A stretch of 64,000 bases of DNA from Photobacterium angustum (GTDB taxonomy: Bacteria > Pseudomonadota > Gammaproteobacteria > Enterobacterales > Vibrionaceae): assembly GCF_002954615.1 (NCBI RefSeq), contig NZ_MSCJ01000003.1:1-64000 (forward strand), read 5' to 3'. Made by a program: the position numbers and the translations under genes. The notes under the pieces are model-generated. The model made no database searches and had not been told where the DNA came from. It was given only the letters and a program-made list of their open reading frames with translations. Shown here piece after piece: positions 1-33,835 of this stretch (its first letter is position 1; every line of letters starts with the position of its first letter).

Positions 1-3000
1 GCATCTTCATCGTTAGTTTCACTATTATCATCACCATCAGCAAATAGAGTTGATAATCCATCAATTTCAACATCAGTATCATTTACACCGAAACGTAAAG
101 TTGTTGATGGTAATTGGCGTGGACCATTACTTGCAGCTAACGTTTTGTAGCTTACTTCACCATTAATACCGTCAGGCGCATCACCAAAGTCATAAGCGGG
201 ATTACAAGCCGAGGAATTATTAATCAGTGAAATATTATCAAAAGCAATTCCATAGTTATTAGCACCATTATTAATTGCCTGACTAGTAAATGCAGACAAA
301 CTCAAGGTGTTCATATTTTGAGCGGGGGTGAATAAGATTTCTTGAGTCGTTAGTGCTGTTCGTGAAGTCACTGTCTCTTGGGCCAGTTGAACATGCCCTG
401 TCGGTGGTTGAAGAGGGTCGCTAGAGACAACGTTTTGCTGAGGGTTACCCCAAACTCTAACGTCTAAATTTGCATTACCGTTAAATTTACCACCGTTATT
501 CTTACCACCTGCAATATCTAACGTCAGTTTGTATGTTTCACCTGCCACCAGTGGTTGGTTCAGATCTATTGACAAACCTTCTTTACTGGTTGCGTTAAAC
601 ACCATGCCGACAAATCGAGAGCCATCGGTTGGTGTATACACATCAAACCACGTCGGTAGTGTGCCATCAAAATGGTCAATCGTTCCGTATTCAGTCCAGC
701 TATACCATGGACCATCTGAATCGAGAACTACAATACTACTTCCTCTTGCTTTCGAAGTTTGCGTCTCAAAGCTTGGAGAAGCTAAATCAAAGACACATTG
801 AGTCCCTGTTGTCGTTGGGAAAGCTAATTCAACCTTATGATCTTCAACTTCACCCTGCCCACCTGAGCCATAAGAGCGGGGATCAAGATCGCTACCACTG
901 GCTGTAGACACATCAAGTAACTGATCGGAAATTCGCACCCTCATATAGAGTGAACCGTCAGCAACAGTATCAGTGAAGCGCCAGTTTAAGTTAATGACGG
1001 CGTCATCAGAAGAATTAGAGGCAACACCATAGCTGCCATCAGTTTCACGACCTGTACTAAATAATTCATCTACTTCAAAAGTACCGCTTCTATCAAGGTC
1101 TAACCACGCATAGAGATACACTTCAGAACCTGAAGTATTGGTGACATCAATTGCATGACTAATGAAGTTGTTATGCGCAACTAAACTATATGGTGCAATA
1201 CCATCTTCATCGTTAGTATCTGCATTATTGTCACCATTTGCATCATTATTAGGTACACCATCAGATTCAACATCTGTTGCTATTGTACCTAAATAAAGAT
1301 CTGTAGAAGAGGTATGAGAAGGACCATCACTGGCTTTGAGTGTTCTGTATGTATCAGGCGCATCACCATAGTCAAGAGAATCTGAATAACATGTCGCTTG
1401 GTCTAATGCATATGCCAAAACGTTGTGCATAAAACGCTCTTGGTTTGTATCAATCGCACCGTCGTATTCCCATATTTGCCCCGGACCTTCGATAAACATT
1501 TCATCAAACATCATAATGGCACGATTGCCAGCCCCCAAGGTAAACAAGGCAGGACGTTCAATTGCATCACTATCAACAAACGTCGCTAGTACTTGGCTAC
1601 CGGCAGGAAGTGTGCCTTTTAATACCGCATTTGGTCTTGTGTTTATGATATTAGGTTGGCCAATCATGTTACCAAACACCCCATTATTCATTGGGACATT
1701 TTTTACATCAATCGTGCGCTGGGTGTTATCACTCAACATTGGAATTTCATCAACTGTCACACCAAATGCTTGAAGTGTTGTCGAACCCTGTTGATGGTAG
1801 TCGTATATTAACACTCCCCCTAAATCAACGTACTCCTTCAATACTGCAGCATTAACACCATTATCATCGGCAGCTGTTATTACTTGATATTGCTCAAGTA
1901 ATTCAGCTGCACTTTGATTAATCTGTGCTGTGTTTGTATGCGTGATATTAATAGCGTCGACATTATTATACGTTCCTGCAGCGCCGTAATTAGTTAGATC
2001 GAGAACTTGTGTTCCCATAAAGTCTGTTCGCAAAGAATACACGCCAAAACTACCAACATTCACAGTACTACATGCGGTCGGTGTCAGTGGATTAGAGTAG
2101 ATTAACTCCATCGTATAATCTTCAACCTCACCATTACTCGCTAAGCCATTAGCACGAGTATCGGGTGCACTGCCTGTCGCTGAGGTCAATAATGAATCAG
2201 TCGTAATACGTACTCGAACGAAACGAGAGCCTACAGACAATCCTGATAAACCACTCCAATTAACATTTTCTGTGATCGTACCAGTCCCTGCAGGTATATT
2301 TACAGTTTGATATTCATCAACATCAAAAGTGCCATTGTTATCAATATCTAACCAAGCATGAAGGGTCGCATCTTTCGTTGGATGTGAGTTGTTGACATTA
2401 ATTGATAGCGTATAAGTATTACTGGTTGCGAGTGCAATATTAAGATCAGGTAAAGATGTAATACCATCCTCATCATCGACGCCACCTGTAGGGTCATTTA
2501 CCGTATCATCATCGGTCGCATCACCATTATCATCGATACCATCTCCCCAATCACTAACATCATAATCAACAGTAGCTCCCAAACGAACAATCTCGCTTCC
2601 TTGTTCATGTGACGCACTACCATAACTGGCTGGCGCGTCCCCATAGTCTTTTACATCAGGCGTTGTTGCACAAAGGGCTTGATCTAATGCATATGCCAAA
2701 ACGTTGTGCATAAAACGTTCTTGGTTTGTATCAATCGCACCGTCGTATTCCCATATTTGCCCAGGACCTTCAATAAACATTTCATCGAACATCATAATGG
2801 CGCGATTACCATCACCAACTGTAAATAATGCTGGGCGCTCGATTGCATCACTATCAATAAAAGTAGCAAAAAGTTGGCTACCTGAAGGGAGCGTACCTTT
2901 TAATACCGCATTCGGTCTTGTATTAATGATATTAGGCTGACCGATCATATTGCCAAACACACGATTATTAATCGGTGAATTTTTAACATCAATCGTTCGT

Positions 3001-6000
3001 TGGGTGTTATCACTCAATATTGGAATTTCATTGACAGTCACACCAAATGCTTGGAGTGTTGGCGAACCATTTTGGTGGTAGTCATATATTATGACCCCCC
3101 CTATATCAACATACGCTTTGAGTAAGTCTGCATTAATGCCATTATCGCTAGCAACTGTCACAACTTGATACTGTTCAAGCAATTCAGCAGCCGTCATGTT
3201 GATCGTTGTACTATTGGAATGTGAAATAGTCAGGTTATCGGTACGACTGTAAGTCCCCGTTGAACCATAATTTGTTGGGTCGAGAACTTGTGTCCCCATA
3301 AAATCAGTACGTAAAGCATAAACGCCGAAACTACCAATATTAATGGTATTACATTGTGTAAGAGGTGGCAGAGTTAATGAAATGGTTATCACGTGATCTT
3401 CAACTTCACCATCAGTTGCAGCCCCAATGGAGCGGCTATCAAGTGCATCACCGGTGTTAGCGTCGGTCAATGTATCTGACGTAATACGCACCCGCATAAA
3501 AGTGTTGCCTGTACTTAACGGACTCCAACCAGACCACGTCAGCGTCACGCTTCCATCACCGCCCCCCGTATCAGAACATGTTGCAGCTTGCGCGGCTTCT
3601 GTCGATTCAAAGACGCCATCATTATTGATATCTATCCATGCATAAACATTGGCGCCATCACCATTACAGGCTATTTGTTGGCTAAACCCTGTTGCATCTG
3701 ATTGAATTGGTATTGGGGCTGTAAAGGCATCTTCATCATTAACCCCAGCACTAACTTCGGTTGTATCATCTAATGTTGCCCCCATATTTTGAAGTGTTCC
3801 ATCATCAACATCTGGTGCAATCGAACCTAAATATACCGTTGCTCCTGAAGTAGGAACGATATGCGATGGGCCACCTGTGGCGGCAAGAGTAATATAATCT
3901 CCTCCTGCATTAGCATCACCGTCATCAGGCGCATCACCATAATCGAGATCGACTGCTAGGCTTGGTTCATCGCCATCTCGAAAATCAAGATCTTTTGCTA
4001 ATGGTTCAAATTGTGCAGCATCGCCATCAGCATCGCCAAATGACGCAACGCGTTGTACAAGTAATGATGCTGTTAATTCATCTTGAGGGTGCCATACGCC
4101 GGCTCCACTACTGTCTACAGCATCAAAAATATCCCAAAGTCCATCACCATCAGTATCGGTATTTGCACCACTTCCAGGGTGAATACTATCAGGACCATTT
4201 TCTGCAATATCTAATACACCATCACCATCTGAGTCGGTATCAAGGAAATCGGCTATCACATCAACACGAGCAGGAATAGAAGAGGTCGCATCAGTATTGA
4301 CTGGGATTAAACCCGGGCCACCATTTTGGGTAGTAATGTAGTTACTATTAACGCCATCATTTGCGTTATATGTTGCTGCATCATCATTGGCAGGGAAAAT
4401 ATAACTTTCTGTTGTTTGCGCTTCAATATTATCAGGAATACCATCATCATCAGCATCAATATCCTGACAGTGTGCCGTTGCATTCGTTGTATCAGCAGCT
4501 TGGAATAACACATTATCTATCGAGAAGTCATTACCTGAACTTTCAGTCGTAGTATTAAAAATACCCCAATCAATAGACGTTTTCGTTCCACTATTCCATG
4601 TATAGTTAAATGTTATATATTCTGCAGTCGTAATAGAGGCAGAACGATCAGGGATATATTGGGCAACGGAGACACCATCAACATAGAAGTGAATTTCAGG
4701 CTCTGCATTTGGAACAGTATTAGATGGATGACCTTGTAAATTATTAGTATTTATTTTTACATCAACACTGAAAACATAATTCGTATTAGGTTTAACTGGA
4801 AGTTGATTAATGGGTTTATATATATAACCGACTTGTTTAGGATCATTTGATTCACACACATCTGTTGATGGTACACTTCCACCTTGATAATCATGCGTAC
4901 CAAAAATCAAGTAAACGTTATTATTACCATCATCCCAAATAGTCGTTGTCTCTGAACAACCTGATCCTGCTAAATACGAACCGACTTGTTGACCTTGAGA
5001 ATTTGTCGGTGTTGTACCCCCTAAATAAGCAGGAACTAAACTTGGTTCTAATAGATATTGCCCTGTTGATTCAAAACCTGTTGCTTCTGCTGTTGTCGCC
5101 TCGATTGCAGCTTGTAAACTTGGTATTTCATTAAACGCATCAGCAAAACGTTCAAAGTTTTCACTATGAACGACAGTACAGCCTTCATCGATATCTAAAA
5201 TACCATCGTTATCATCATCTAGATCTCGGCTATCTGGCACACCATCTTTATCGAAATCAGAGCCTGTACCAGTAGATGGCAATGTTGGTGTTGTGTTCTT
5301 TTGTATCGTAAATTGATGATCTTCAATTTCACCATTCGTTGCATCTGTCGCAAAATTACTGCTGCTATATGAGCTACAGCCGAAATTAGATACATTAGCA
5401 CTTGGCATACCTTGTGATACATCAAGCTCTTTAACGCCACCTTGCATGGTATATCTAATACAGCCATTGCCACCATCGTGTGCAGCATGAAACTGACGAC
5501 CTGGATCATTTAAATTGGTATAAGTGGTTTGTGTTCCTGTTGCCCAGTTATAAGATATTGCATTATCTAGATCAGCAAAATAGGTCACCATTTGACCTAA
5601 ACTATTTAGTGCAGCCACCTCTTGGAAGTACATGCCACGGGTATTAAAATTAATACCGTTTAATAGAGCGTTATTAATTTGTCCCGTCGTAATGTCAACA
5701 CAAATAACCGGATCTATAGAAGCATCACCACCGCAAACAGCAACTGGGTTTGATGCTGAGTCATACGATACAAAAAAATTATCTCTTTCTGCATCATCTT
5801 CTTGTATTAAAAGAAGAACCGGTTGCTGGCTGTTAAAGTCACTACAAACCTCATCATTAGTTGTATCCCAACACAAAACAAAACGCTGACCAGCATTGCG
5901 AGAATATGCAAAATAAACACGATCACCAATAACCTCAGTTCTGGTATCAGCACCAGTAACCCCCAATCCAACAACATTGGTAATATCAATAGGGTAACCA

Positions 6001-7184
6001 GAACAATCTGTCATCATGGTCGTGACACACTCAATTTTTGTTGAGTCATCCATCACATACATTTGATTACCGACAAGCCCTGGCATTGAACGACAAGTAT
6101 GGTCTGTGCTGCCACAATTATTGGCGGTATCTGTTTTACCATTGCCAAATGCGCCCATGAATGAAACAAAACCGCACGAATTATCGGTGTCCATATCCCA
6201 ACATGACATCCCATATTCAGTCGGAATATAAATTTTACTATTTACAACAATATGATTACCTTGATGTGGTGTTCTTGTATTCGGATTAGCTCCGGTATCA
6301 AAATGTTTACCATCTGGATTACCGGTACCATTATCATAACCAGGACACAGCACACCAGTTATGATGTCATAACAAAACACGGCAGGCTCATGTGGATTTC
6401 GATGATGTGCTATTGCATAAACTCGTGTTTCATCACTATTAACGAATACCCCATAACTATCATGTCCTATATGACCAAGTCCTGTTAGAGCAGCTCCACT
6501 GGCTAAATCATCTGTCGTTAAACGAAAGCGAGCAAACGTCAGTCCGTCTTGTATTTCAGATAAATCATTCCAAACTAAGGTAACATTGCTGCCATTTGAT
6601 CCATTTGGAACGGTGATGCTCGCAAATTCATTGGTATCAAATTTTTGATTTTGATTTAAATCGATCCAGCCATATAAGTTTGCAACGACACCCGACAAAT
6701 TAGTTACTTTGACGTCAGTAGAATACGTACTATCACCATCGTTATACGATACAATATGCGAAGTAAAAGCTTCTTCATCATCCCCATTAGCATCATCACC
6801 TGTTGCATCACTGTTGGGTTGACCATCAGTTTCAATATCAGGTGCAACATCACCTATAAATAAATTACTGCTTGCCACATGGTTAGGCCCGCCACTTGAT
6901 ATTATCGTTTTGTAATCATCAGGCGCATCACCATAATCTTTGGTCGCATAAGCCTCAACACTAACTAATGAAAAAACAAGAATAAAAATAATATCTTTAA
7001 CATTCTCACTTCGTATTTTATTTAATTTTCTAATACCATAAGAAATATAAGATATGATATCCGTAAATACTGAAAAAGCTCTCACCTTTGATATATTAAT
7101 AATAAAAACAAGATTAGTGTTCTTATTAAGAAAATAACACTTAAATAATAACACCAAATGTTTTAACCAAAGATAACTCAACAT
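1..7184 (-). CDS. Giant secreted GEVED-repeat protein (third paralogue), C-terminus outside the window
   Basis: The frame is open from an ATG at 7184 (AAGGG eight bases upstream) to base 1, so at least 2,394 residues are present and the C-terminus is missing. A hydrophobic signal segment ([16 protein letters not shown]) is followed by repeated GEVED modules starting DYGDAPDD and ending in GEIEDH/GEVEDY, with acidic type-3-like repeats such as [17 protein letters not shown] that should bind calcium. A propeller-like stretch lies at about 6500-5350. A domain of about 230 residues, looking like a Rossmann or amidotransferase-like fold ([19 protein letters not shown] ... [12 protein letters not shown]), occurs twice. 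The predicted N-terminus is odd: about 65 residues of AT-rich, non-coding-looking sequence precede the signal core, and an out-of-frame ATG at 7003 would encode a perfect signal peptide if one T were added (see findings). Role inferred: a secreted or surface adhesin. No catalytic function is claimed. Confidence 0.88.
1388..2078 (-). repeat. Intragenic duplicated domain, copy A (about 690 bp)
   Basis: This segment of the third giant gene encodes the [14 protein letters not shown] ... [16 protein letters not shown] domain. It is nearly identical over long stretches to the segment 1,280 bases to the right, with the same length, frame and order. The high DNA identity points to a recent tandem duplication or ongoing gene conversion. 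Confidence 0.85.
2668..3356 (-). repeat. Intragenic duplicated domain, copy B (about 690 bp)
   Basis: Second copy of the same domain ([14 protein letters not shown] ... [16 protein letters not shown]). Long blocks of DNA, such as the part encoding the [17 protein letters not shown] region, differ from copy A by only scattered bases. One GEVED module separates the two copies. Confidence 0.85.
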
Positions 7185-7454
7185 AATGAGATCCCTTAAA
7201 CAATGAAATGCGGACAAAAATTAAAAATAGTTGATTAGTTACATAATGAAAAACAAAAAAACAAGAAACACCGAACATTATTATTTATTAGAAAGAATAG
7301 AATGAATAGTAAAAACCATTCCTACATATATAAAACCCTTTAACTATTAAAAATAACAAAGGCAATATATTATTACTTAGGATTATTAGTTTCATTTATT
7401 AGAAAATAGAATATGACTTAAATATCAATTTAATTAATTAAAAACATGCAATAA
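7185..7454. other. AT-rich intergenic region between the second and third giant genes
   Basis: About 270 bases of very AT-rich sequence lie upstream of the third giant gene and downstream of the terminator of the second. It should hold the promoter of the third giant gene. I could not pick a confident promoter and see no gene here. Confidence 0.5.
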
Positions 7455-7483
7455 AAAAAGCGCCAACTTATGTGGCGCTTTTT
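7455..7483 (-). terminator. Rho-independent terminator of the second giant gene
   Basis: A perfect 11-bp stem (AAAAAGCGCCA / TGGCGCTTTTT) with a 7-base loop lies just after the stop codon at 7500. Read on the minus strand it ends in a T-run. Confidence 0.9.
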
Positions 7484-7499
7484 AAATAACGAATTGTAT

Positions 7500-10400
7500 T
7501 TAATTCACTTTAACGCGATAAATGACTTGTCCACTGCTACCTGCACTCATTGTACCTGCCATATCCCATTCAATATTTCCTTCGTAACCAATTTGATTCG
7601 TTCCATCAGTAGTTGAAACGGTACATGTTAGCCCCGTTGGTACTGTCGCATCTGAACATAGTACGGCTTGACTCAACTCGGTGAAATCTGGGGTTGAATC
7701 GAACAGTTTTACATCACTAATATTGGCATTACTGAAGTTTTTAAAGGTAATGACATACTCTAAAATATCACCCGGTTTGGCATTGTTTGTCGTCCCCGGT
7801 GGGGTTCCTTCAGTAATGTTTTGTACGGTCTTCTCTATCGTTAACTCACCACTGCCAGCAAATGTCACTCTGACTGTATCTGTATCGGTTAATTGTCGAG
7901 TGACGCCGCTATTAACGAAGCTCATGTCCGCTTCTATATCGTAATTGTAATTACTGTTCGCTGGCGCATTGCTCGGCGATTGCACTTTAGAGAGTAAGCA
8001 AACAGAAGAGCCTGCTGTTGTGGCGACTGGGTTCACGACTTGATTATCGCCACCATCTAACTCGCCATTACAATTATTATCAATAAAGAGTATCGCTGAC
8101 CAACCGCCAATACCACTTGGGCCTGTCGTGTTATTGATGATATTGAAGTTAACATTACCTTGGGTATTGACTGTGAATTTATGACTAAATAGCGCTAAGC
8201 CTCCTGGCTCTATTTCTGTAAAGTTATCAGGCTCCATATACGGCTCACTAACTTTACCAAAGTTAAGACCTGATAAGTTATCACCCGCTTGCAGTACAAC
8301 GGTCATTTGGTTATCCGTGACACTGGTACTTGTCACTTGTGGGATACCGCTAACATCCGCTTCACTGATATCAATCCAATTGGCTTTTGAACCAACCCGT
8401 ACAATGATTGGCTGCCCTGCTAATATCACTGGCACTGCAAACGTATAACGACCATCACTGCCTGTTAACGCCGTTGCTATGATGTCACCGGTGTTATAAC
8501 CCGTAATATTCGGTCCATTATAAATGGCTTGTACTTTAAAGTTCGCAAGGCCTCGCTCTGTGCCATCTTGAATACCATCATGGGCATCTGTTGCACCACC
8601 GACACCGTTATCTTCAAAGATGATGCCACTGATAGACATTTGCTGAAGCACATTCACGGTGTAATCTTCTACCTCACCATTATCCACTGTGCCTGTTGGC
8701 GCTATACATTGATTCGCTGCACTACAGAGACGGATTCGAACAAAGGTGGTGCCATCATGCCCATTACTGATCCCTGTTGGTAAGAAAGTCGGGATCGTAT
8801 TGAGACCTGCGGTAACAGGGAAGTCTTGTACCACATGCTCACCAGGGTTATTCGTGAAGGTACCGTCGTTATCTAAATCCATGAAGATATTGATATGACC
8901 ACTACCGCCTGTCACCACAACATCAATGTCATTCGATACGCCAACGAGCATATCACTCGGTAGGGTGACCCCATCTTCATCATCGCTACCGGTCACATCA
9001 TCACCCGTTGCATCGGCGCTAAAGAATGGATAAATATCTGGATCCCATACCGTACCCATAATTAAGTCTGGCGTACCTTGTAGGCTCACATCACGATTTC
9101 TATGGCCTACTTCACCATAGCTTTCTGGTGCATCCCCTTTATCTCGGCTAGCAATACAGCCCGATGCATCTTGGAAACCAAGCTGGGTCTTATCACTGGC
9201 AACGATATAGTTACCTTGTTTAGTGATAAGGTTGATACGGTACATCGCCACTCTGTCGGAAGTGATATCATAAGCACCATCTTGATTGGTATCATGATGA
9301 CCAAAGTTGGTCATCGCATATAAGTGGTTCACATCATCGGTAACAACAGCACCACTCCACGCATTCGGTGCTTTACCTTGGAAGTTAATGTCTTCAACCG
9401 TGACCGTATTACTCACCGGATCTAAGATATAAAGCTTAGGCTGAGTCGGCTCTAACAGGGTGAACGTCAGTCCTGCTGCAAACCCTCTACCTGTCAAATC
9501 CACAGAGTAAATATTGCCATCGATTTCTGAAATCGCCCAGTCCGCACTGGTTCTCAATAGCCCTGTTCCGGTATCAATCATGGCTGACGGTGTAGGTTTC
9601 ACTTCAAAGGTCATGGATGGAATATCAATAATTAAGTAACTGCTCCACGTTGAATGCGTCACATAATATTTCGTTCCATCACGGGATAATGTCCCCATAT
9701 TTGACTGAGGTAAGACAGGTGGGAATAGCCCGAATAGCCCTGCAGCGGTATTTAATGGATTACCCGTGGTGACACTTCTCGATGTGCCGCCATCAATACG
9801 GCTTACCGTGTAATTACCCGCAGCGCGAGGAGCCCCCATCGGTACCCATGTCACACCTGTTCTATCTGTCATAATGACCGCTAAATTACCGGCACCATCT
9901 CGATACGTAGAGTACATGCGTCCATTATCACGGTTTATGGCCAGCGAGTTCAGTCCACTGTAAACAACACTGTTATTTAGTGTGGTAAATGAGAAACTCA
10001 ATGGCTGCACTGGTGTTACCGCAGAGAAACTGTAATTAGGATCACTTGGTGCTTGCGTGACATAGAAACGGTCACACACATCATTGACTTGGAAATTACT
10101 GATCATGATACGGTAATCTTCGACCTCACCATCAGTGGCTGCCCCTGTTGGGGTATTACAGTTGGTATCTGTAGAACACACCCTGACGCGTAAGTAGATA
10201 TTGCCTAACGTGACGGTTGTTGGAATGGTGGTTGGGAAAGTCAACATACCTTGTGCTGCGGTTGGTTGATTCACCACTAACTCTGTCACCGGATCCCATA
10301 CACCATCGGCATTCCAATCCATCCAGGCGTAAAGTTGGAGACCATTAAGGGTGGATTGTGCGTCTTTCGTTACTGTAATTTCGATATCAATCGTGTCGCT

Positions 10401-13400: not shown

Positions 13401-13943
13401 GTCATCATCAGCATCAATATCTTGATGGTGTCCCTCTTGAGTAACCGCTAAATCTCGTGTTAAGAATTCAACACCACAAATAGCGAAGTCATTACCCTGA
13501 CCACTATTGTTACTACCACTAGCGACAAAGTTATTTCTCACCGCTAAGGTGGTTAATGGCTCGTTGGCTGCAGGTGTGTAATCAAACGTATAATAATGCT
13601 CACCATTAATGATCGTTTCATTTGGATTAATGATTTGATTATTAATCACACCTTGCGTTGGCGTCATCGTTGTTTGTGACATCAGAACGCGTAAACGGTA
13701 TGTTTCGCCTGCTTGTAATGTGACTGACGGTAGGTATTGTGGTAATACACGATAGAATTCGTCATTAAATGATGTTGCATTTAAGCCTTGTCCATTACAG
13801 CGCCCTGCCGTATCAAACTCATTACACAATGTTAAATATGCGTAATAGCGACCACTGCTACAACTACCACCATAACCTTGCCAAGTGTTATTCACTTGGT
13901 TACCAGTGTTACTTCCCATTGCCATTTGTCCAGCACAGACCAA
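7500..13943 (-). CDS. Second giant GEVED protein, C-terminal part (separated by a frameshift)
   Basis: This 2,147-residue frame is the continuation of the upstream frame ending at 13892. Its first residues (VCAGQM ... [18 protein letters not shown]) align with an internal region of the 4,700-residue paralogue, so the ATG at 13943 is not a natural start. In order it carries a type-3-like calcium-binding region, several GEVED modules (four GEVEDY signatures), a propeller-like DUF6923-type region at about 10,100-9,130, a Cna-B-like domain ([10 protein letters not shown] ...) at about 8,650-8,250, and a C-terminal DUF11-like domain ([11 protein letters not shown] ... [13 protein letters not shown]). 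It ends without an LPXTG, PEP-CTERM or autotransporter barrel. Unless the frameshift is an error or is recoded, this part is not made. Confidence 0.85.
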
Positions 13944-17668: not shown

Positions 17669-17888
17669 ACAATACACTCCTTTAATTTGAGGCACAGTTA
17701 GATATTAATGATTAATATCTAACTTGATTACCATCAAACCATTTATGCTAATTTAAATATCAAGCCAGACATCTATATTTTTAGAAAGCAATAAACAGAC
17801 CAAATAAAAAACACTTTAAAATAAGCCTATTATTTGACTTACCCTAAAGTGTTTTATTTATATTTGTTATTTGCGACGAAATTTGAGT
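17669..17888. other. Intergenic region with terminator between first and second giant genes
   Basis: It holds the terminator of the 4,700-residue gene (17808-17856) and, to its left, about 140 bases that should contain the promoter and ribosome-binding site (AGGAG) of the second giant gene. The second gene is therefore probably transcribed at least partly on its own. Confidence 0.6.
17808..17856 (-). terminator. Probable terminator of the 4,700-residue gene
   Basis: Inverted repeat AAAACACTTTA / TAAAGTGTTTT with a long AT-rich loop of about 26 bases, just after the stop at 17889. On the minus strand it runs into TTTTTTATTTG. Confidence 0.7.
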
Positions 17889-23800: not shown

Positions 23801-26800
23801 TACGATAATCTTCTACTTCACCGCCAGCCGCAGTTCCAAATGAGCGAGGATCCTCATTATCACCAGAAACTGTATCTAGTAGCGATTCTGTTGATAAACG
23901 CACTCGTAAGTAGGTTTGGTTTAATGCTGCAATATTCGGTATCGAAGGCCAAGTTAGCGTTTCTTGCCCATTGGTTACACCATCTGCAACCACGATTTCA
24001 TTTGCACTCAATGCTTCTGATTTATCAAAAGCACCATCATTATCCCAATCAATCCATGCATAGAGATAAGCATCGTTACCGCTTGTATTATTAACAATAA
24101 CTGAGGTGGTAAAACTCGTACTAGCTGATGACAATGCAGTAACCGATACACCGTCTTCATCTGCTGTTGCAGAATTATCATCGGCATTTGCTGCTGCATT
24201 TTGCAGCGTTCCGTTATCGTCATCAGGCGCTGTTGTACCAAGATAAACTGTTGCATCAAGAATATGGGCAGCACCACCATCAGAGGCTAAAGTGCGATAA
24301 TTATTACTACCAATACCAAGGCCAGTATCTGGTGCATCACCATAGTCTTTTGGTGAAACCGTTCCTCCCGTGAAATTACAGTACGCATACACTTCAGGTA
24401 GACTCTCTACACCAATACTCCCCGGCAATGTCAAACTGGTTGTATAGGTAGGCGTAGTAGCCCAATTTTCAATCACATCTAAATTCGTTCCACGCCACGC
24501 ATACAAGCGACCATCTGGACCAAATTTTAATGATTGGACAGTTCCAGGCATACCACTTACTGCAGTCACAGTATCCGTCGCTATGTCATAGTAAGTGAGA
24601 GGACCGTTATCACCACCACCAGCATTTTCGAAAAACACACGTTGACCATCAGGAGAAAATCTTGGTGATGAGCCTACGCGGGCAATGGTATTGGTTACCG
24701 AAATCACATTATTTATCTGACCTGTATTAGCATCGAAATCACCAATAAAGATTGCACTAATACCATCTTTCGCGATAGCTAGTTTACCTGTGACTGGTGA
24801 GTAATCCATTGCCCCTTTACTGTTCGAACCATTAGAGCCCGGTACTGAACTAGTAACAGGTGAGAAAGATATACCCGTTGAAGTTAATGCATACGCTTGT
24901 AATTGCCCACTTTGATTAAGTGTTAATAACCATGAGTCCGAACGATTACGGTGTGGCACCACCAATTGAGATTCCAACCCAGAACTACTTTGAATAGTCC
25001 CTAAGTTACTCACACTCGATGTTGAAAAATCTAACTCGCCAGCACTAATTTGGGAGAAGTTATTACCAAAAATATAGAACTTATTAAGATCACCACCAGG
25101 TTTAGGTGTTATTGCAATAGGGAAATCAGCAGAGGCACCTGTTGGGAATGGTACTGATATAACTGCATTTGTTTGACCATGGTAAATATTACTACCATCA
25201 CCATAAGCAATCACTTCACCATTGAGTGGATCGGTAATTGTAACAGTACCTTCCGTTCCCCCAGCGCCAGTAGCCATGTTCGTACCATTAGCTTGTGTAA
25301 TGGTTGGATAACCGCTTCCGTCTGGATTAGTGAAGTCGATAATTGCTCGATTACCACCTTGTACCCACCATTTTTGAGTGAGATCAGCGCTATTTTCACA
25401 ATTTTGAATAACGTAGTTTGTCGTCACTACAAATTGATAATCTTCCACTTCACCATCAGATACCGTTGATGCGAAATCTGCATCTGTTAACGATTCAGTG
25501 GTAATTCTAAAGCGTGCATAGTAATTACCATTATTGAGGCTCGAAGTAGTAAAGGTGAAATTGAAATTAGCGTTGGATGTTCCTGCATTGACGGTTTGAA
25601 CTTCCGCTTCAGTGCTATCAAATTGCCCGTCATGATTGCTGTCAAACCAACCAATAAGTGTTGCATTGCCTGCGCTATTATTTGTCGCAGAAACGGTAAT
25701 TGATACACTGGTATCTCCAGCATACATAGTCGTGAAGGTCACAAGGCCATCTTCATCATCTATACCACCTGCAGGATCGCCCGCAGTATCATCATCCGTT
25801 GCATCGACATTATCATCAGTGCCATCGCCCCATGCGCCAGTATCGGCATCAGGTGTTACTGAACCTAAGAAAGTTTGTTGTCCGCCATTTATCAGATTGT
25901 GCACAGCATCGCCAAAACTTGCCGGTGCATCACCATGGTCTGCACCATTAGAGGTTCGCCATAACACCTCACCCGCACCATTATTCGGGTAGTAATTCAG
26001 CAGATCAGTATTCGATGTAAAGATCGTACCTGTTGATGAATTTACAATACCTGATTGCCAAATAGCTGTAGGTGATGGTGGTGGTAAGATAGCATCATCA
26101 ATACCGTCTAGGTTGCTATCAGTTCCTGATAATACATTGGTAAGATTCGCTTCATCGGTATCACCCGTTTCAGTATTATCATCGTCTGTATCACGCCAAT
26201 CAGGATTATCTGTTCCATCATTATTATTTGGCGTAATACCATCTTGACCATAATTAGCTGTAATATAAGCAGTATTTAAACCGTTATTCGCAGCATAAGT
26301 AGCTAGAGAGTCATTATTAGGTGGGATATAGCCTGCGGTAGTTTGCGCCTCAACATTATCAGGGATACCATCATTGTCACTATCTAGATCAACGTGATCA
26401 TCAATACCATCTTTATCAGTATCTACTGTTTCAATGTAATCTTTTATCGCAAAATCAACACCGCATAATGCATAATCATTACCGCCACCACTGGTTAAAC
26501 CACCCGAAGCAACAAAATTATTTTTAACCGCTAACTGTGATAGTGGCTCATCCGTCGCTGGCGTGTAGTCAAAGGTATAATATTGCTCGCCTCCAACAAT
26601 AGTCTCATTAGGGTTTATTGCAGTACCGTTTATGACCCCTTGAGTTCTTGTCATAGGTCCTTGTGACATCAATACCCTTAATTGATATGTCACTCCACCT
26701 TGTAGTGTCGCGGTTGGTAAATACGTATTTAAAACACGATAAAAGTTACCATTAAAAGCTAATGCTCCGCCGCCATTTTGAGGTGGGCATCGAGGACTTG

Positions 26801-29800
26801 TTGTATCGAACTCATTACATAAGGTTAAAAAGCCATAAAATCTGCCACTAGAGCAACTCCCGCCATAGTTCTGCCAAATGTTGTTTACTTGGGGGTGACC
26901 AGAACTCGCCATACCATTTTGCCCAGCACAAGCTAATGGAGAGCCATTATGATTATTATCTCCCATTCCACCGACATGTGCTGGCGCGCCATAATTACCA
27001 TCACCAGTATGTTTTACTAATGGACACCCATTCGGGTTGTTAGGATCTGCTGATTCAAAATAATCAGTATAAAGATAATTTGCTGCGGTGATCATTTCAT
27101 CAACATCTAAGATACCGTCATTGTCATCATCGACATCAATATCATCCATTACACCGTCATTGTCGGTGTCTGTTGTTGATGCATCTCTATTACTTCTGTG
27201 TGTAAATGTCACTGGAACAGCATAGTCTTCCACTTCACCATCTGTTGCCGTATTCGTTGCTCGAGGATCCGAGTCAGAACCTGTCGCCGTTGTACTTAAA
27301 GTATTCGATGTAATACGAGCACGAAGATAGCGAGTACCAAATTTCGGCACGATTCCATTCCAGTTTATCGTTTCTGTGTATGTCCCAGATCCTGCATTAA
27401 CAACTGCTGTTTCTAACTCATCAACATCAAAAGTGCCGTTACCGTCACTATCAAACCAGACGTAAAGGTTCGCGTTAGTTGTATGATTATTTGTAACCGA
27501 AATATTAACACTGAAATTAGTATCATCCGCTTCTATGGTTTGAATTACTGCAATACTGTCTTCATCATTAATGCCATTTACTGGATCATCGACTGTATCA
27601 TCATCGGTTGCGTCACCATTAGTATCAGTGCCATCACCCCAGTTACCAGAATCAAGGTCAAGGGCTGTACCTAATTTAATATCGCTACTACTACCTAAAT
27701 GCGAAGCGCTACCAAAACTTGAAGGCGCATCACCGTAATCAGCACCACGCACCTCCACCATATAATCTTCAACTTCACCACCCTGCACATAACCAAACCA
27801 GTCATCAGCCGTTAGTGAGGTATTAGCAATACGCACACGTAAAGCAACAGGCCCTACAGTTAATGCCGTGATATTATTCCACGTCAATGTCACTTTATTC
27901 GTAAGGTTATTATTACCTGTTGGATAGTTATCAGCACTGAAAGACGTGTTAGAGAAAGGAGTACTATTCGCAGCAACATGTAATTCATCAACCACTTCAT
28001 TACTACTAAATTGACCATCACCATTAATATCTAACCATGCTACTAATGTCGCGGTTGAACCTGAGCTATTATTGACAGCCACATCAACACTATAAGTACC
28101 AGTATTAGAGAAATAAATTGGCAACGGTGTATTAATACCGGTTTCATCATCTGAGCCAGTTGTATCATCAGTATCAGCGATTGCACTTGGTATTACGGAA
28201 TACTCGGAATCAATAGTACTCGCACCTAAATACAAGCCACTACTGTAGTTATGAGCAGGACCATCACTTGCTATGGTTGTTTTATAACTATCAGGCGCAT
28301 CACCTAAATCAATCTTGTTGCTTGCTGATAAGAAATAATCTTCAACCTCACCATTAGACGCTACTCCCAGTGAACGCTCATCAATATTAACGGTACTACT
28401 GTCATCAGCAAGCATGTCTGTGGTGATACGTAAACGAACACCATAAGTAGTATTGTTTGATGTCGCGACATCATTCAACCAGCTTAAAGAATAGGTTTGC
28501 GTACCACTATTAGCAGGAATAAGTTGCACACCATAAGGTTGAGTTACAGCTTGTTGGATTAACTCATCTGATTCAAAGCTTCCGTCCCTATCCCAATCAA
28601 TCCAAGCATAGAGGTAGGCACTTAAACCTGAGTTATTTGTGACTGAAACATCAGCTTGATAACCGGCACCATTGCCCATTACAGGTAGAATGAGTGTGAC
28701 TAAACCGTCTTCATCGTTAGTCGCATTTAAATTATCACCATCCGCATTTGCTGATTGTAAAGAGCTTGTATCAGCATCAGGAGCTTGGCTACCCAAATAC
28801 AACGTCGTTAATGCATCAATGCTATGGTATGGACCATTGTTTTCAAAATCAGTTTGATAGTTATTAACCGCTGTACTACTCGATGTATCAGGTAAGTCAC
28901 CGAAGTCAACACCACCTAGTAAGATGCTGTAATCTTCCACTTCACCATCACTTGCCATACCGCCATAATCAGTAACTGTTAGAGGATCAGTCGATAAGCG
29001 GAAACGGATATAACTCATGCCTTCTGTTAAATAACGAAGCTGATCTTGATTGAATGAGTAGGTATAACTGCCGTTTTGACCAGAAGCAATAGTTTCCACT
29101 CGCCCTTCAATCGTATCAAATACACCATTACGATTAGCGTCAATCCAACCAATAAGATAGGCATTACTGCCAGATGTATTCCGAACATTTAAATCAACAG
29201 AATAAATAGTAGAACCGGAAGGAATGGGTAATAAGGTTGAAGTCACACCATTTTCATCATCACTACCGGAGAGATCATCACCAGAGGCATCCAGCGATGC
29301 TTGCGCACTCAGATCAGAATCAATATTTGATGAACCAAGGTATAAGTTAGCAGTGTTACTAATAAGGTGATAAGCACCACCTAAAGAAGGATCAACACCG
29401 TAATTATCAGGCGCATCACCTAAATCAATATCACTCATTATTATCAGGTGATCTTCTATTTCACCAATACTATCTCCGCCTATTGATGAGACTTCAGATA
29501 TATCATTTATTGCACGATTAATAAGGCGTAAACGCATAAATAAATGTGTGTGGTTGCTTGGTGAGATACCATTCCACTCTAACTCTGTTCTGGCTTGTAC
29601 CGCTCCTGCAGGCACATAAGCATATTGCCCTTCTGAATCTTCAAATAGACCATTACGATTAAGGTCAATCCAACCGACTAAGGTTGCCATCGTCGTTAAT
29701 TGATTAGTCGTTGGTATATAAAGTTTATAATCGGTAGATGAGCTTTGAATAGGAACAATATTTAATCCGCTCTCATCATTAGTATTATCTGAATTATCAG

Positions 29801-31991
29801 CATTCGCGTTTGCATCTTGAAGAGTACCTTGTTCTGCATCAGGTATCGTTGAACCAATATAAAGATTGTTATCGATAAATTGGTAAGGGCCACCATGCGC
29901 ATCAAGAGTGAGATAATTTTCAGCAGTTGTGGATGAACTTGAATCTGGTGCATCACCAAAATCAATATCACCAATTCGGATCAAGTAGTCTTCGACTTCA
30001 CCATCATAAGTTTTCCCTCCTTGGGTATTACACGTTTCCCCACTACTACATAAGCGCACTCTTAGGAAACGTTCGCCTGGTTGAACGCTATTTGGAATAG
30101 AGACAGGATAGGTATTATCACCAACAACAGCAGTGGTATCTGTGATCACTTTTTCTGTTGAGTTATCTAGAACACCATCACCATTAAAATCAATCCAGCC
30201 ATGCACTTGACGTCCGTTATCACTCTCTTCTTGAATATTTATGACAATGTCTACATTTGAACCAATAGAATTACCAAAAAGTGGGAAAGTTACCCCATCT
30301 TCATCATCTGTACCGTCATTATCATCAGCATCTGCAGCGGCATTTTGAGTACCGCCATCACCATCCCACAATGTGCCCAAGCGTAGATCTGAAGTGCCAT
30401 TTTTATTAGCATCTCTTTCAGCATGGTAAGCCTGATCACCAGTTAATAACGCATCACCAGTATCAGAAAGTACAGCGCTAACATTTAAGGCATAAATATT
30501 ACTTAATCCGGTATCGTCAACGATAAATAAACTAATTTTACGATTACCATCAATACCGCTGTTATCTTGGAAATATATCGAACGCATTAAGGCGCCAGTG
30601 GCGGTCGGTGTCGCATCATCGGTAGTAAAATTAATTTGTAGCGCAACCCCATCACCATCTTTCGCAGGATCTACAACACCAATTAAATCACCTTCATAAA
30701 AGACTTCATTTGTTACATTATCAAAGCGAATTTCTCCAGCGCCATCACCAACCGACTGAATATATACTCGCTCATTTATGGCATCTTGGTAGCTAGGCGT
30801 TATTTTTAACTGCCCAGTGTTATAGTGCGTACTGTCTAAATCCGTAGAAGTTGCATCATTACCATTATCTAAATGAACTAAATCACCAGAGAAGTAACCT
30901 GAAAAGTCACCATGAATATCATGCAATTCTGGCGCTCGTGGATCGGGAACAATATAAGTAACGGTGAAATAACTATCGACATAAGTTCCTGTTGTATCGA
31001 TCACTTGGAACGTCATTGGATAAATACCAGGATCTAACCCTGTACCTACAGGACCGGGTGTAAAGGTAAATGTATTGGGGGTAGGCTCTGTAAGAGCACC
31101 ATTGATATCACCGAGGCTAAGCACTTCAATATTAGTGCCTGTTACCGTAAAACTATAGCTATTTCCTTTTTTTACAACAACTTCATCACTTGGATAACCG
31201 GAATAGTCTGCTATTTCAGCAGCCCCTTTTAATTCCCACATAATATCGTAGTGGGTTTTTGATTTCATATTGCCTTGGTCATCATAGTCTTCGACGACGA
31301 TACCAGCACTATACAAGCCAGCGGCTAAATTACCTGAGTTCGTCCACGTTAATAAGCCCGTATTTTCATCAATCGACATACCACCAGGGTTAGCTCCTCC
31401 CCCTAGTTCTGAAGTATTTGCCATACGGAATTTTGTGCTATCACCATCAGGGTCCAAAGCAGGAATAAGTTTTTGGTAATTTACAAGTACCGTACCATCA
31501 GTATAACGTTGCGGTACTTGATATAGGATTGGCATATCTATTAAAGGTGAACGGTTACCATTTTTTAATAGAATTGTTGACTGAATACTCCAGCTACCAT
31601 TCGAGTTATTTTTTAACCCTGCAATACGACAACAAGAATTATAAGCAGCCGTATAAGTTGTATTTAAATCGAGATTTTTAAATACAATCTCTTTAACTTC
31701 TAGTCTATAAGCGCCATTAACATTTTGATCTACTGTAATTGTTTGACTAGTCGGAGATATTGTAGGAGATAAAGATACTGCCCCCTGACAACTAGCTCCT
31801 ATTCGACATGCTGTTTTTAAAGTAACGATAACGTCATTCTTGTTACCATCGCCATCCAAGTCACTTGAAACCCATGTCATCGCACCACCACGCCAGTGAG
31901 ATGCATAACTTGCGTTTGAAAATGAAGCAATAAGTAAGAATATTATAAATACAAAAATAATTTTAAGTATATTATGATTATCTATTCTCAT
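17889..31991 (-). CDS. Giant secreted multidomain GEVED protein, 4,700 residues, with L-type lectin-like domain
   Basis: The start at 31991 has AGGA nine bases upstream and gives a clear signal peptide (ILKIIFVFIIFLLIASFSNASYA). Domains in order, by approximate residue: cadherin/Ig-like N-terminus with SHWRGGAMTW and paired cysteines (30-500); GEVED modules, the first ending near 667, with 14 GEVED/GEIED signatures in total; a type-3-like calcium-binding region plus a cysteine-containing module (1,607-1,870); a propeller-like region (2,190-2,540); an L-type lectin-like domain (3,437-3,650) with GADGVTFTLQN and DFDTYANG ... NDH, matching the metal- and sugar-binding pattern of that family; a DUF6923-like region (3,840-4,140); a Cna-B-like domain (4,307-4,450); and a DUF11-like domain at the end. 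It lies 48 bases after a small exported protein gene. Inferred role: calcium-stabilised adhesin binding glycans. No anchor is visible. Confidence 0.92.
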   Translation of the reverse strand: MRIDNHNILKIIFVFIIFLLIASFSNASYASHWRGGAMTWVSSDLDGDGNKNDVIVTLKTACRIGASCQGAVSLSPTISPTSQTITVDQNVNGAYRLEVKEIVFKNLDLNTTYTAAYNSCCRIAGLKNNSNGSWSIQSTILLKNGNRSPLIDMPILYQVPQRYTDGTVLVNYQKLIPALDPDGDSTKFRMANTSELGGGANPGGMSIDENTGLLTWTNSGNLAAGLYSAGIVVEDYDDQGNMKSKTHYDIMWELKGAAEIADYSGYPSDEVVVKKGNSYSFTVTGTNIEVLSLGDINGALTEPTPNTFTFTPGPVGTGLDPGIYPMTFQVIDTTGTYVDSYFTVTYIVPDPRAPELHDIHGDFSGYFSGDLVHLDNGNDATSTDLDSTHYNTGQLKITPSYQDAINERVYIQSVGDGAGEIRFDNVTNEVFYEGDLIGVVDPAKDGDGVALQINFTTDDATPTATGALMRSIYFQDNSGIDGNRKISLFIVDDTGLSNIYALNVSAVLSDTGDALLTGDQAYHAERDANKNGTSDLRLGTLWDGDGGTQNAAADADDNDGTDDEDGVTFPLFGNSIGSNVDIVINIQEESDNGRQVHGWIDFNGDGVLDNSTEKVITDTTAVVGDNTYPVSIPNSVQPGERFLRVRLCSSGETCNTQGGKTYDGEVEDYLIRIGDIDFGDAPDSSSSTTAENYLTLDAHGGPYQFIDNNLYIGSTIPDAEQGTLQDANANADNSDNTNDESGLNIVPIQSSSTDYKLYIPTTNQLTTMATLVGWIDLNRNGLFEDSEGQYAYVPAGAVQARTELEWNGISPSNHTHLFMRLRLINRAINDISEVSSIGGDSIGEIEDHLIIMSDIDLGDAPDNYGVDPSLGGAYHLISNTANLYLGSSNIDSDLSAQASLDASGDDLSGSDDENGVTSTLLPIPSGSTIYSVDLNVRNTSGSNAYLIGWIDANRNGVFDTIEGRVETIASGQNGSYTYSFNQDQLRYLTEGMSYIRFRLSTDPLTVTDYGGMASDGEVEDYSILLGGVDFGDLPDTSSSTAVNNYQTDFENNGPYHSIDALTTLYLGSQAPDADTSSLQSANADGDNLNATNDEDGLVTLILPVMGNGAGYQADVSVTNNSGLSAYLYAWIDWDRDGSFESDELIQQAVTQPYGVQLIPANSGTQTYSLSWLNDVATSNNTTYGVRLRITTDMLADDSSTVNIDERSLGVASNGEVEDYFLSASNKIDLGDAPDSYKTTIASDGPAHNYSSGLYLGASTIDSEYSVIPSAIADTDDTTGSDDETGINTPLPIYFSNTGTYSVDVAVNNSSGSTATLVAWLDINGDGQFSSNEVVDELHVAANSTPFSNTSFSADNYPTGNNNLTNKVTLTWNNITALTVGPVALRVRIANTSLTADDWFGYVQGGEVEDYMVEVRGADYGDAPSSFGSASHLGSSSDIKLGTALDLDSGNWGDGTDTNGDATDDDTVDDPVNGINDEDSIAVIQTIEADDTNFSVNISVTNNHTTNANLYVWFDSDGNGTFDVDELETAVVNAGSGTYTETINWNGIVPKFGTRYLRARITSNTLSTTATGSDSDPRATNTATDGEVEDYAVPVTFTHRSNRDASTTDTDNDGVMDDIDVDDDNDGILDVDEMITAANYLYTDYFESADPNNPNGCPLVKHTGDGNYGAPAHVGGMGDNNHNGSPLACAGQNGMASSGHPQVNNIWQNYGGSCSSGRFYGFLTLCNEFDTTSPRCPPQNGGGALAFNGNFYRVLNTYLPTATLQGGVTYQLRVLMSQGPMTRTQGVINGTAINPNETIVGGEQYYTFDYTPATDEPLSQLAVKNNFVASGGLTSGGGNDYALCGVDFAIKDYIETVDTDKDGIDDHVDLDSDNDGIPDNVEAQTTAGYIPPNNDSLATYAANNGLNTAYITANYGQDGITPNNNDGTDNPDWRDTDDDNTETGDTDEANLTNVLSGTDSNLDGIDDAILPPPSPTAIWQSGIVNSSTGTIFTSNTDLLNYYPNNGAGEVLWRTSNGADHGDAPASFGDAVHNLINGGQQTFLGSVTPDADTGAWGDGTDDNVDATDDDTAGDPAGGIDDEDGLVTFTTMYAGDTSVSITVSATNNSAGNATLIGWFDSNHDGQFDSTEAEVQTVNAGTSNANFNFTFTTSSLNNGNYYARFRITTESLTDADFASTVSDGEVEDYQFVVTTNYVIQNCENSADLTQKWWVQGGNRAIIDFTNPDGSGYPTITQANGTNMATGAGGTEGTVTITDPLNGEVIAYGDGSNIYHGQTNAVISVPFPTGASADFPIAITPKPGGDLNKFYIFGNNFSQISAGELDFSTSSVSNLGTIQSSSGLESQLVVPHRNRSDSWLLTLNQSGQLQAYALTSTGISFSPVTSSVPGSNGSNSKGAMDYSPVTGKLAIAKDGISAIFIGDFDANTGQINNVISVTNTIARVGSSPRFSPDGQRVFFENAGGGDNGPLTYYDIATDTVTAVSGMPGTVQSLKFGPDGRLYAWRGTNLDVIENWATTPTYTTSLTLPGSIGVESLPEVYAYCNFTGGTVSPKDYGDAPDTGLGIGSNNYRTLASDGGAAHILDATVYLGTTAPDDDNGTLQNAAANADDNSATADEDGVSVTALSSASTSFTTSVIVNNTSGNDAYLYAWIDWDNDGAFDKSEALSANEIVVADGVTNGQETLTWPSIPNIAALNQTYLRVRLSTESLLDTVSGDNEDPRSFGTAAGGEVEDYRIAIGAFDFADAPDSYNTSSATNGAAHIVTSQLYLGDQQADTEADGVPDLLARSDDVNANPDDEDGINILVPVPLDATDYSTIVEATNSTGSDATLWVWIDFDQSGDFTAADAQSITVPDGTNQGQFTLTWTGLGAISLTNGMTYLRTRLTTDTLTSSDWGGIAGNGEVEDYLLAIGLGDLGDAPDSYGTDRVQLTTEGVGPMHIVETTPVVYLGVTPPDEEADGFVDGIDNTGDATDDDVVGADEDGVIIPPTVNAQPAVPVQFTTRVHTDANATLYGWLDFNRDGVFDVATEAATPLALTAADEDTDQTLSFNVPSDVLTGISYLRVRICRDTTDCSTPHGLADDGEVEDYKITLDVVYDYGDAPESAGFNTLESSLGTRHATGSPYIYLGTVPGDVDTDGFGDGTDTNGDATDDDTKGTGDDEDAFTVLPSYTKGSGTLTLNVACNDHDGTSDLSATVYGWVDFNMNGDLTDTGEFAQAACNDTSGTANGSASLTFNVVDDSGVGMHYLRLRITTDVLTQADIDLSAGDGEVEDYELSTRDYGDAPATYIAGGVASHHVGSNYIGAGVDVDTGHYTVVDGDNLPAGATGNGDDETGTTVVLYNTIANTGLKMAGSYIELDATHSGFVSVWVDWNNSGDWNQAGEQSINDMAVTAGNNILPIPTPSSSTGTQFWTRVRYCSTAGDCNTVTGISNDGEVEDHFVTLTDVSCLSLGSQFTMVSSANSFVDNNTNEIIITPNLNSQRGAFWTTDKFDLAAPFRVRFGIYLGNSDAGADGVTFTLQNAAAGNQAIGQLGGGLGSQGLDPAVTIDFDTYANGASYLDIANDHTAIYDPAPFPFTRIGTTTHDLDNIEDNQYHEVIFDWDPSTNTFDYYFDGVLKETLVRDFINQDFNGDSNVHYGFTGATGGAKNLQKVCIIDQTISFTEYDFGDAPDTAIGTANADYNTTKIDNGAMHVLHDYDDDGQVDIILGAELDTDDGSLQNPSATADDIENTPNDEDGVVYNTTMRPGDPETIQVTTLVDPDTDLTGLEVYAWIDWNRNGDWSDAGEQIVADNTATANAQTPYNFTVPANASLGYTYMRVRVCSSSGCNNPIGEAADGEVEDYRILVSTLSTVNTCDTIVQTKGNGSNFDYVAFDPTVDPVEFNSLVSPMGLTDYSNILGVNALGYNRINGLFYGLFRDGSSANEDFILFVTDRFGTDFIPLGKVYADGVQTFNHSGNGAVNFTDSQVLSRTGSGTNISGINRGDVSPDGQYLYVWSGTIDALIRIDLFTQQFTAITLSSTPNLDGDIAFNPNNNLLYSIDLSGGNYSEIDPSNGNVTTSAVTFNGLLPVDNSGGASAGGMVSDNGVNLYAFANGGNHDTDGDGSHDLTDRTAVYQLNVITGELVFVSEALDVSLSGNDAAGCYYSRDYGDAPDSYGEVYHTYLDNGSEGDAAFDGDPDLSLGSRWDSEFIQYSSVDALGDDNKGISDEQGVAMPASITVETSTLIPISVPQASGFLNVFVDLNGDGDFTDTGELIFEDEAINATLTNFDFNLDAGLTSGYDGDTFVRFRLCSAIGTCNSPTGDAPDGEVEDYKFDLINQIVLEGTVFEDNGTGGVTAHNGIQEGAERGIANYVVRAIFNDTPIAGYTMGQEIIRTTTLGDGSYTLVLAVQFADKDILLEVVPQAAWIDISEVDVTDPALGLVGKITNTSLTDSQMLINASAGDYLANIDFGKVTMPTLEPDNYTETEPGVPVFFSHKYNVNTSGSVSFTVANKNSSPTGYPWTEVLYFDANCNGELDPGVDGVVTNPTAVNADTTSQVCIIVKVTVPANVPLNAIYNYQLNADIVFSNTAVTNQVSDVDTIKVSFSQAGELEIEKTVKNITQNDAESRSNQARPGETLEYTIYFINNGSGPIDTIKLFDAVPEFTELTSVISCTSPATSLPASIVSCNVTTVDGTNQSGYEGGIEWELGGTLAPAERGHVTYRVTIK

Positions 31992-32039
31992 ATTTCTTAT
32001 TCCTATTTGAATAATTCTTTGAAAACAAAATATTAAAAA

Positions 32040-32822
32040 TTAGTCTAATAACTGATATTTAAGAATTCGGCTGGAACCTTTGTTATCAGTCATAGATAAA
32101 TACAAGCCCGTGATATCACCTTCAATAGGAAGGACAGCAATCGATTCAATCTTTTGATTTTTATTTTCTTTTTGAATATCTTTTGCCTCAAAGTACATTC
32201 CAATATCACGTCTAAAATGAATATAATCTAAATGTATAGGCGCAACGTAGTTTATATATTCTTGTTTGTTAGATTTATTTATTGGGATAAACGATGAAAC
32301 GTAAAGAGTATTATTTAAGGGATTAATTGCTAAATCTGAAACTAGGGCTCCTACACCATCATAACTAGGGGTAAGAATGTCGTAAGTTGTTACATTCACA
32401 AATCGGTTTGCATTATCAAAATCAATTAAGTCTGATTTATTAAACTCAAATAGCGTATTCTGAATACCATTATGACCAACTAAGTAAATCATATCGTTAT
32501 TTTCAACACTTCCAACAAACGAAATGTCATCCTGATGAGCTATAAATTTTTCTAACTGTGTGTTTAAATCGGAAGAATTTACTTGAGAAATGTATTCTGA
32601 ACTTATTAATATATCGTTGGTTTTATCTATTAGTTTTAATGTCTTACTTTCATTAAACTGATAAATATTTTTCTTGTTTTTTATTATAATCTTCTTATTG
32701 TTTGTAGATAGATTCACCGGAGATTCAAGAGATATTGCAAACTCATTTTGATATCTCAAAATACACGACTGCACAGAAGAAGAAACCAGTAAACATAACA
32801 ATATAATACTGTATATATACAT
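32040..32822 (-). CDS. Exported protein of unknown function, first gene of the giant-protein cluster
   Basis: 260 residues with a hydrophobic N-terminus ending in SSSVQSC, which is a weak lipobox, so it could be a lipoprotein or a plain secreted protein. The body is beta-rich, with short repeated strand patterns (DDISFVGSVENNDMIYLVG, and later DLAINPLNNTLYVSS), suggesting a small propeller-like fold similar to the propeller inserts of the giant proteins. The start is well supported by GGGAGGGGCT directly before the ATG. The stop is 48 bases from the start of the 4,700-residue gene, with no terminator between, so they are probably co-transcribed. I do not recognise a family. A role as partner, anchor or regulator of the giant protein would be a guess from position alone. 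Confidence 0.85.
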   Translation of the reverse strand: MYIYSIILLCLLVSSSVQSCILRYQNEFAISLESPVNLSTNNKKIIIKNKKNIYQFNESKTLKLIDKTNDILISSEYISQVNSSDLNTQLEKFIAHQDDISFVGSVENNDMIYLVGHNGIQNTLFEFNKSDLIDFDNANRFVNVTTYDILTPSYDGVGALVSDLAINPLNNTLYVSSFIPINKSNKQEYINYVAPIHLDYIHFRRDIGMYFEAKDIQKENKNQKIESIAVLPIEGDITGLYLSMTDNKGSSRILKYQLLD

Positions 32823-33686: not shown

Positions 33687-33835
33687 GCTTGATCCCCTCT
33701 TTGAACATAACGTTCCCAATGACTTCATTGTTATTATTGTATCAATAATAATACATTCAGAGTATCTACGTTTTTCTCTTTAAATGAAAATAAAGAAGAA
33801 TTCATAAAAACAGTGCGACTTTCTAGAAATAGAAA

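Follow-up and report, generated by a model that had tools for sequence, protein, structure and literature searches.

Few routes are known for placing very large adhesive proteins on Gram-negative surfaces. In the type IX secretion system of the Bacteroidota, cargo of varied make-up carries an Ig-like domain at its exact C-terminus, the giant outer-membrane barrel is present in single copy, and the cargo genes may be scattered. The GEVED domain was defined and named from fibrillar adhesins of the CshA type, and in proteobacterial proteins of the CshA_NR2 type DUF11 is named as the most frequent repeat of the stalk (PMC10952558). Giant Vibrio proteins with ice-binding or RTX parts are also on record (PMC10868602). 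The DNA considered here comprises positions 1-64000 of a Photobacterium angustum contig (C3 of genome G000; 1,623,367 bp in total), hereafter the window. It holds half of an array of six giant genes, which end in one common C-terminal cassette and are followed by a conserved core of genes, including one for a predicted outer-membrane barrel of very large size. From sequence comparisons we consider it probable, with considerable room for doubt, that the array and the core form a surface-display island, in which the core recognises the cassette as a C-terminal tag and carries or holds giant adhesin or matrix proteins at the outer membrane.

The original prediction, made from the letters of the window, described three adjacent giants on one strand and took them for a set of giant adhesins or matrix proteins built of GEVED and DUF11 modules, families to which it assigned no established role. 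The minus-strand open frames are present as described, but gene 2 lies in two frames and the array holds six genes rather than three. A tandem, exported, lectin-bearing set fits an adhesin or matrix role; that prediction missed the cassette, the barrel core and the co-occurrence of the two. For GEVED there is a described context, that of the CshA-type fibrillar adhesins (PMC10952558).

All six giants end in a cassette of about 388 residues, the last strand of which is the end of the protein. In gene 3 it occupies 17892..19055 on the minus strand (388 aa), and it is modelled as three beta-domains with a predicted local distance difference test score (pLDDT) of 93.2. By alignment, its DUF11-like C-terminal domain (CTD) takes up about 130 aa at 17892..18290, also on the minus strand, and reaches the last residue. 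Among database relatives of the gene 4 cassette, found in a search that scored only the 7,992 best candidates, the CTD lies 0-2 residues from the C-terminus in 38 of the 38 listed. Their owners include species that we take to be alpha- and betaproteobacteria, and one relative (P0143) bears PF18651. No sequence relative of the CTD was found in the PDB up to E 1. In a tree of 27 cassettes, many inner branches of which are weak (10 of 23 starred), tight within-genome pairs stand beside classes common to several species. The DUF11 modules of the original prediction are present as a C-terminal repeat, but weak by model: TIGR01451, the DUF11-type C-terminal repeat, reaches 18.3 bits in gene 3 and 23.8 in gene 2, under its cut-off of 24, and 27.9 bits in gene 4, above it.

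The core follows gene 6 on the same strand, in the order 165-aa gene, gene of about 1,105 aa, barrel gene, OmpA-type gene and 920-aa gene. The barrel gene is open over 2,210 codons (about 2,200 residues), and its product is predicted to contain a very large outer-membrane beta-barrel in its C-terminal part. The model, made from the conserved 1,015 residues of a Photobacterium kishitanii protein (pLDDT 79.7, predicted template-modelling score 0.58), has smaller beta-domains to about residue 205 and then about 40 strands, counted by eye. Its fold matches are mixed, among them FimD, SlpA, LptD, SprA and TonB receptors, with template-modelling (TM) values that are low or root-mean-square deviations (rmsd) that are high; they support a very large barrel and identify no family. 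There was no sequence relative of the barrel protein in the PDB up to E 1 and no NCBIfam family for the barrel piece, and no usher family was reported for a piece of 1,297 residues at E up to 0.05. The 180-aa OmpA-family protein (PF00691, E 2.7e-20) is lipoprotein-like. The 165-aa protein has DUF11 matches under threshold and the 920-aa protein weak Pfam matches only; the 1,105-aa and 920-aa proteins appear to be DUF11-like from their general look and their mutual similarity.

This composition would also suit an anchor rather than an exporter. The core would then be a DUF11-like surface layer, with the barrel in the outer membrane and the OmpA lipoprotein bound to peptidoglycan, and the giants would leave the cell by another route, such as type II secretion, and dock by their C-termini. 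Consistent with such an arrangement, several core proteins appear DUF11-like, two of them mutually related, the core includes an OmpA-family lipoprotein, and the top TM values of the barrel (TMq 0.24-0.26) belong to SlpA/SDBC, an S-layer protein of Deinococcus. No SLH domain was reported in the barrel piece scanned, which covers the protein from about codon 900 onwards. Nothing decisive argues against an anchor, which we regard as possible but rather doubtful.

The evidence for a display island with a tag-recognising core comes chiefly from the distribution of the two parts. A class sample of 369 gammaproteobacterial genomes, drawn evenly, contains 51 with a match to the barrel model and 12 with one to the CTD model. 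The 12 all fall within the 51, and none is among the other 318 (p 1.4e-11, or 1.0e-10 leaving out our own genome). At stringent cut-offs, picked after the lists had been seen (barrel E<1e-100; CTD E<1e-15, with the match extending to model position 131 or 132), the same seven genomes from six families make up both sets, our own included. In each of the other six the CTD either closes the open frame or stops one residue short of its end; a match to almost the entire cassette is present in five, and to its last two thirds in one (G402). A cassette gene immediately precedes the core in G682 and G586 and immediately follows the barrel gene in G349, and in a BD1-7 bacterium a frame of 1,401 codons that ends in the same way comes directly after the core. 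Barrel relatives are also named in Endozoicomonas, Alcanivorax and Thiotrichaceae.

Within the genus, the gene 3 cassette used as a query matches 17 of 52 genomes, and the barrel piece matches the same 17, once in each. In 16 of these carriers the barrel gene shares its contig and strand with cassette giants, the exception being a genome in 490 contigs (G022). Across 329 Vibrionaceae the barrel occurs in 18 genomes and the CTD model in the identical 18. The gene order that the original prediction had suggested looking for in relatives recurs in the three arrays read through, those of G019, G028 and G051: a DauR-like regulator, giants, the 165-aa gene, the gene of about 1,105 aa, barrel, OmpA, the 920-aa gene, two genes, and SelB. 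In G019 seven giants extend across 302776-384119, and one giant is on the opposite strand. Carriers hold 2 to 7 full-length cassette genes, many in tandem, with open frames of up to 8,131 codons; the scattered single copies that the same prediction had weighed as the contrary case are thus not the picture within the genus.

Several points weigh against this interpretation. Thirty-nine of the 51 barrel-matching genomes have no CTD match, so that the barrel family extends beyond the pairing. Four of the 12 CTD genomes are unclean: the match is weak in G538 and partial in G578 and G593, and in G605 a 190-codon frame runs past it. The search models were built from carriers, and for the barrel the structural matches are diffuse. 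When genomes are grouped by SelB at 69% identity or more, all 17 carriers fall into one group together with a non-carrier (G020), which implies few independent events within the genus.

Tight linkage in the genus, mostly in one clade, could also result from hitch-hiking, in which cassette and core are inherited together as one island with no direct functional link. The pairing persists, however, in other families, and in G402 and G568 the cassette and barrel matches are on separate contigs, although both are draft genomes. A single loss in G020 removed both parts: this genome has no barrel, CTD or GEVED match, and its SelB locus, of which 20 kb were read, lacks the island. In G085, of another genus of the Vibrionaceae, the core has no giant beside it; five CTD-ended proteins and one partial match are encoded elsewhere, on two contigs, and one of these proteins combines the only GEVED match of the genome with a whole-cassette match. 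Tagged proteins that are scattered while the core stands alone indicate that the pairing can work in trans, and we judge hitch-hiking improbable. Two of the G085 CTD genes (L158:1765-4536, L159:4545-6956) are preceded by short tandem repeats, which read AASRKPQ in the open frame.

The bodies of the giants bear out much of what had been proposed for them. GEVED modules are present far beyond chance, with counts of 14 for gene 3, 8 for gene 2 and 4 for the portion of gene 1 inside the window. The genome has 42 matches to GEVED (PF20009), every one above the curated cut-off, and 40 of them are in the array, where genes 3, 2, 1, 4, 5 and 6 have 14, 8, 10, 1, 3 and 4; the E value for gene 3 is 8.4e-185. 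The L-type lectin-like domain of gene 3 is found at 21051..21656 on the minus strand (residues 3446-3647), with 154.1 bits against a cut-off of 78.3 for PF18483 and E 6.2e-45. It matches PDB 7elv at E 1.1e-25, and in this alignment the acidic and asparagine positions that we presume to form the sugar site look kept by eye. Gene 6 has a PF18483 domain as well (123 bits, cut-off 78.3). Acidic repeats occur in all three window giants: by a pattern of our own, DxDxDG..[DN], there are nine in gene 3, nine in both pieces of gene 2 together and five in the window part of gene 1. The giants may be calcium-dependent and adhesive.

GEVED was considered as the defining feature of the system and rejected. 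As a control in the class sample it was found in 18 of the 369 genomes, eight with a barrel match and ten without, and two GEVED proteins of our own genome lack the cassette. These two, of 714-728 aa, are encoded outside the array (L012:6638-10122, L011:4294-6992). Behind each of their genes is a gene for a small lipoprotein-like protein, another type of GEVED pair in this genome.

Size, repeats, an acidic composition (D+E 11-14%, K+R 3-5%) and a lectin domain would be expected of ordinary giant adhesins secreted by a type I system, of the RTX or LapA-like kind. The N-termini of the giants, however, resemble Sec signals by eye, and Pfam and NCBIfam scans of the pieces and of genes 1-4 and 6 reported no RTX-type or other type I module. 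We consider type I secretion very improbable.

If the array and core do form a tag-dependent display island, the giants would reach the periplasm by Sec, the core would recognise the cassette, and the giants would then pass through, or be fixed to, the giant barrel. The DUF11-like proteins and the OmpA lipoprotein would provide a scaffold and a link to the cell wall, and outside the cell the lectin, GEVED, DxDxDG and propeller-like modules would form an adhesive fibre or matrix. Such an island, if correctly understood, would explain why these giants, which carry no annotation beyond GEVED or DUF11 protein, occur together. A tag defined by sequence and a single-copy partner gene make a testable pairing and offer a way to look for surface cargo in marine Proteobacteria, and fish-associated Photobacterium carry the full island.

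The CTD is also found by itself. A protein of 166 aa that consists almost wholly of a signal-like N-terminus and the CTD is encoded far from the array (C3:257093-257590; L025:10091-10591), and frames of this type (140-178 codons) are present in 14 of the 17 genus carriers. Among the other 35 genomes of the genus the only trace is in G020, a 28-residue match, 86% identical, in a 45-codon frame, which may be read as a trace of loss. The neighbourhood of the solo gene is common to G000, G028 and G038, the three compared. As a guess, its product could be a cap, an adaptor or a minimal cargo. Near the solo gene, three small, cysteine-bearing, mutually similar proteins that look exported are encoded in G000 and G038 (L025:7318-8627, L030:7202-8540); none was seen in G028.

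Of the giants themselves, gene 3 is a single open frame at 17889..31991 on the minus strand (4,700 aa), with a signal-like N-terminus, its GEVED matches, the lectin domain and the cassette; residues 1-600 have a counterpart in G019 that is 77% identical. Gene 2 consists of two overlapping open reading frames on the minus strand. The first piece, at 13892..17695 (1,267 aa), has a signal-like N-terminus and four GEVED matches, and the second, at 7500..13943 (2,147 aa), has four more and the cassette at 7503-8666. The frame changes at 13892-13943; the nearly identical counterpart in gene 1, which lies at the end of the contig, stays open. The change may be either an assembly error or a real break. 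The 5' part of gene 1 (3..7217, minus strand; 2,405 codons, four GEVED matches) is open at the window edge.

The remainder of the array is at the other end of the contig. There gene 1 resumes in phase at C3:1623366 to 1616320 with 2,349 codons, about 4,755 overall, and gene 4 (1,439 aa), gene 5 (open over 2,302 codons) and gene 6 (2,391 aa) follow on the same strand; the six giants range from about 1,440 to 4,755 residues. The final 1,000 bp of the contig match window positions 14258-15257 at 99.7% identity, and past the junction identity is 80, 64, 62 and 74% over the first four 50-bp blocks. The contig break coincides with the edge of a repeat shared by genes 1 and 2, a place where an assembler might break a contig; the phase fits, and continuity across the break is likely, not proven. 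Extra array copies may be hidden between the contig ends. A 3.3-kb block that includes the C-terminal part is common to genes 1 and 2 at 98% identity, as is a 2.3-kb block at 97%; for genes 5 and 6 the common stretch is 4.7 kb long (91%). In another genome a cassette remnant with a stop is found beside intact giants (G041:C104:16790-17467), an indication that array members also decay.

Upstream of gene 3, at 32040..32822 on the minus strand, is the small exported protein (260 aa, signal-like N-terminus) that the original prediction had placed at the head of the array. This role was dropped. Comparison with 20 stretches from six other genomes, including the arrays of G019, G028 and G051, gave no match at E 1e-5, and the protein resembles the giants at chance level only; DUF6929 scores 23.7 bits, under the cut-off of 27. 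Judged by these comparisons it is probably outside the system. The conserved border of the island is formed by a regulator gene at 33033..33728 on the minus strand, which we presume to be DauR-like and which has counterparts of 82-85% identity beside the arrays of G019, G028 and G051. At the other border, the SelB-like gene (L013:6899-8728) is 97% identical to that of G002, and the barrel 59%; the history of the island thus seems separate from that of its border. A terminator-like hairpin of 20 pairs lies behind gene 3 (17808..17855, minus strand), for which the evidence is weak: where 9.1 (sd 3.2) sites of this kind were expected, the scan gave 12. A promoter scan gave fewer sites than expected and its result was not used, and the window contains no tRNA. 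Nothing favoured a phage origin, and it was rejected; viral contigs gave one pattern-matching stretch, and none encoded a relative of the barrel.

The island or its pairing was not found described in the open-licence full texts searched, and its parts recall several known systems. With CshA-type adhesins the giants have the GEVED domain in common; they differ in their C-terminal tag, and CshA_NR2 was not reported in the window proteins by the Pfam and NCBIfam scans, although P0143, the cassette relative mentioned above, carries PF18651. Chaperone-usher systems, represented by FimD among the fold matches, handle pilin subunits rather than giants, and the usher barrel has 24 strands, far fewer than the roughly 40 counted by eye in the model; no usher family was reported for the barrel piece. 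The S-layer deinoxanthin-binding complex of Deinococcus, with SlpA, likewise has a very large outer-membrane barrel and gives the highest TM values among the listed matches, but these are low (TMq just 0.24-0.26) with an rmsd over 20, and the present system has tagged partners and a separate OmpA lipoprotein.

The closest resemblance is to type IX secretion, with which the island shares end-tagged cargo of varied make-up, a single-copy giant barrel and, possibly, scattered cargo genes. Foldseek matches for the barrel include SprA (8gl6_A, E 8.1e-7; 6h3i_A, E 2.0e-6), at TMq values of only 0.13-0.17; the absence of SprA from the 50 rows of a second structural comparison (VIA) excludes nothing. 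The core differs in its DUF11-like proteins and OmpA lipoprotein, and the phylum is another. The domain families that we take to be those of type IX cargo were not reported in the Pfam and NCBIfam scans of the giant pieces and cassette, and the island is therefore not filed as a member of type IX. The core could, tentatively, be an undescribed proteobacterial secretion system, with a barrel of about 40 strands and DUF11-like and OmpA-lipoprotein companions, that exports or displays cassette proteins as large as about 8,000 residues, a separately arisen counterpart of type IX. By analogy, type IX sorting appears to be the nearest known system in logic.

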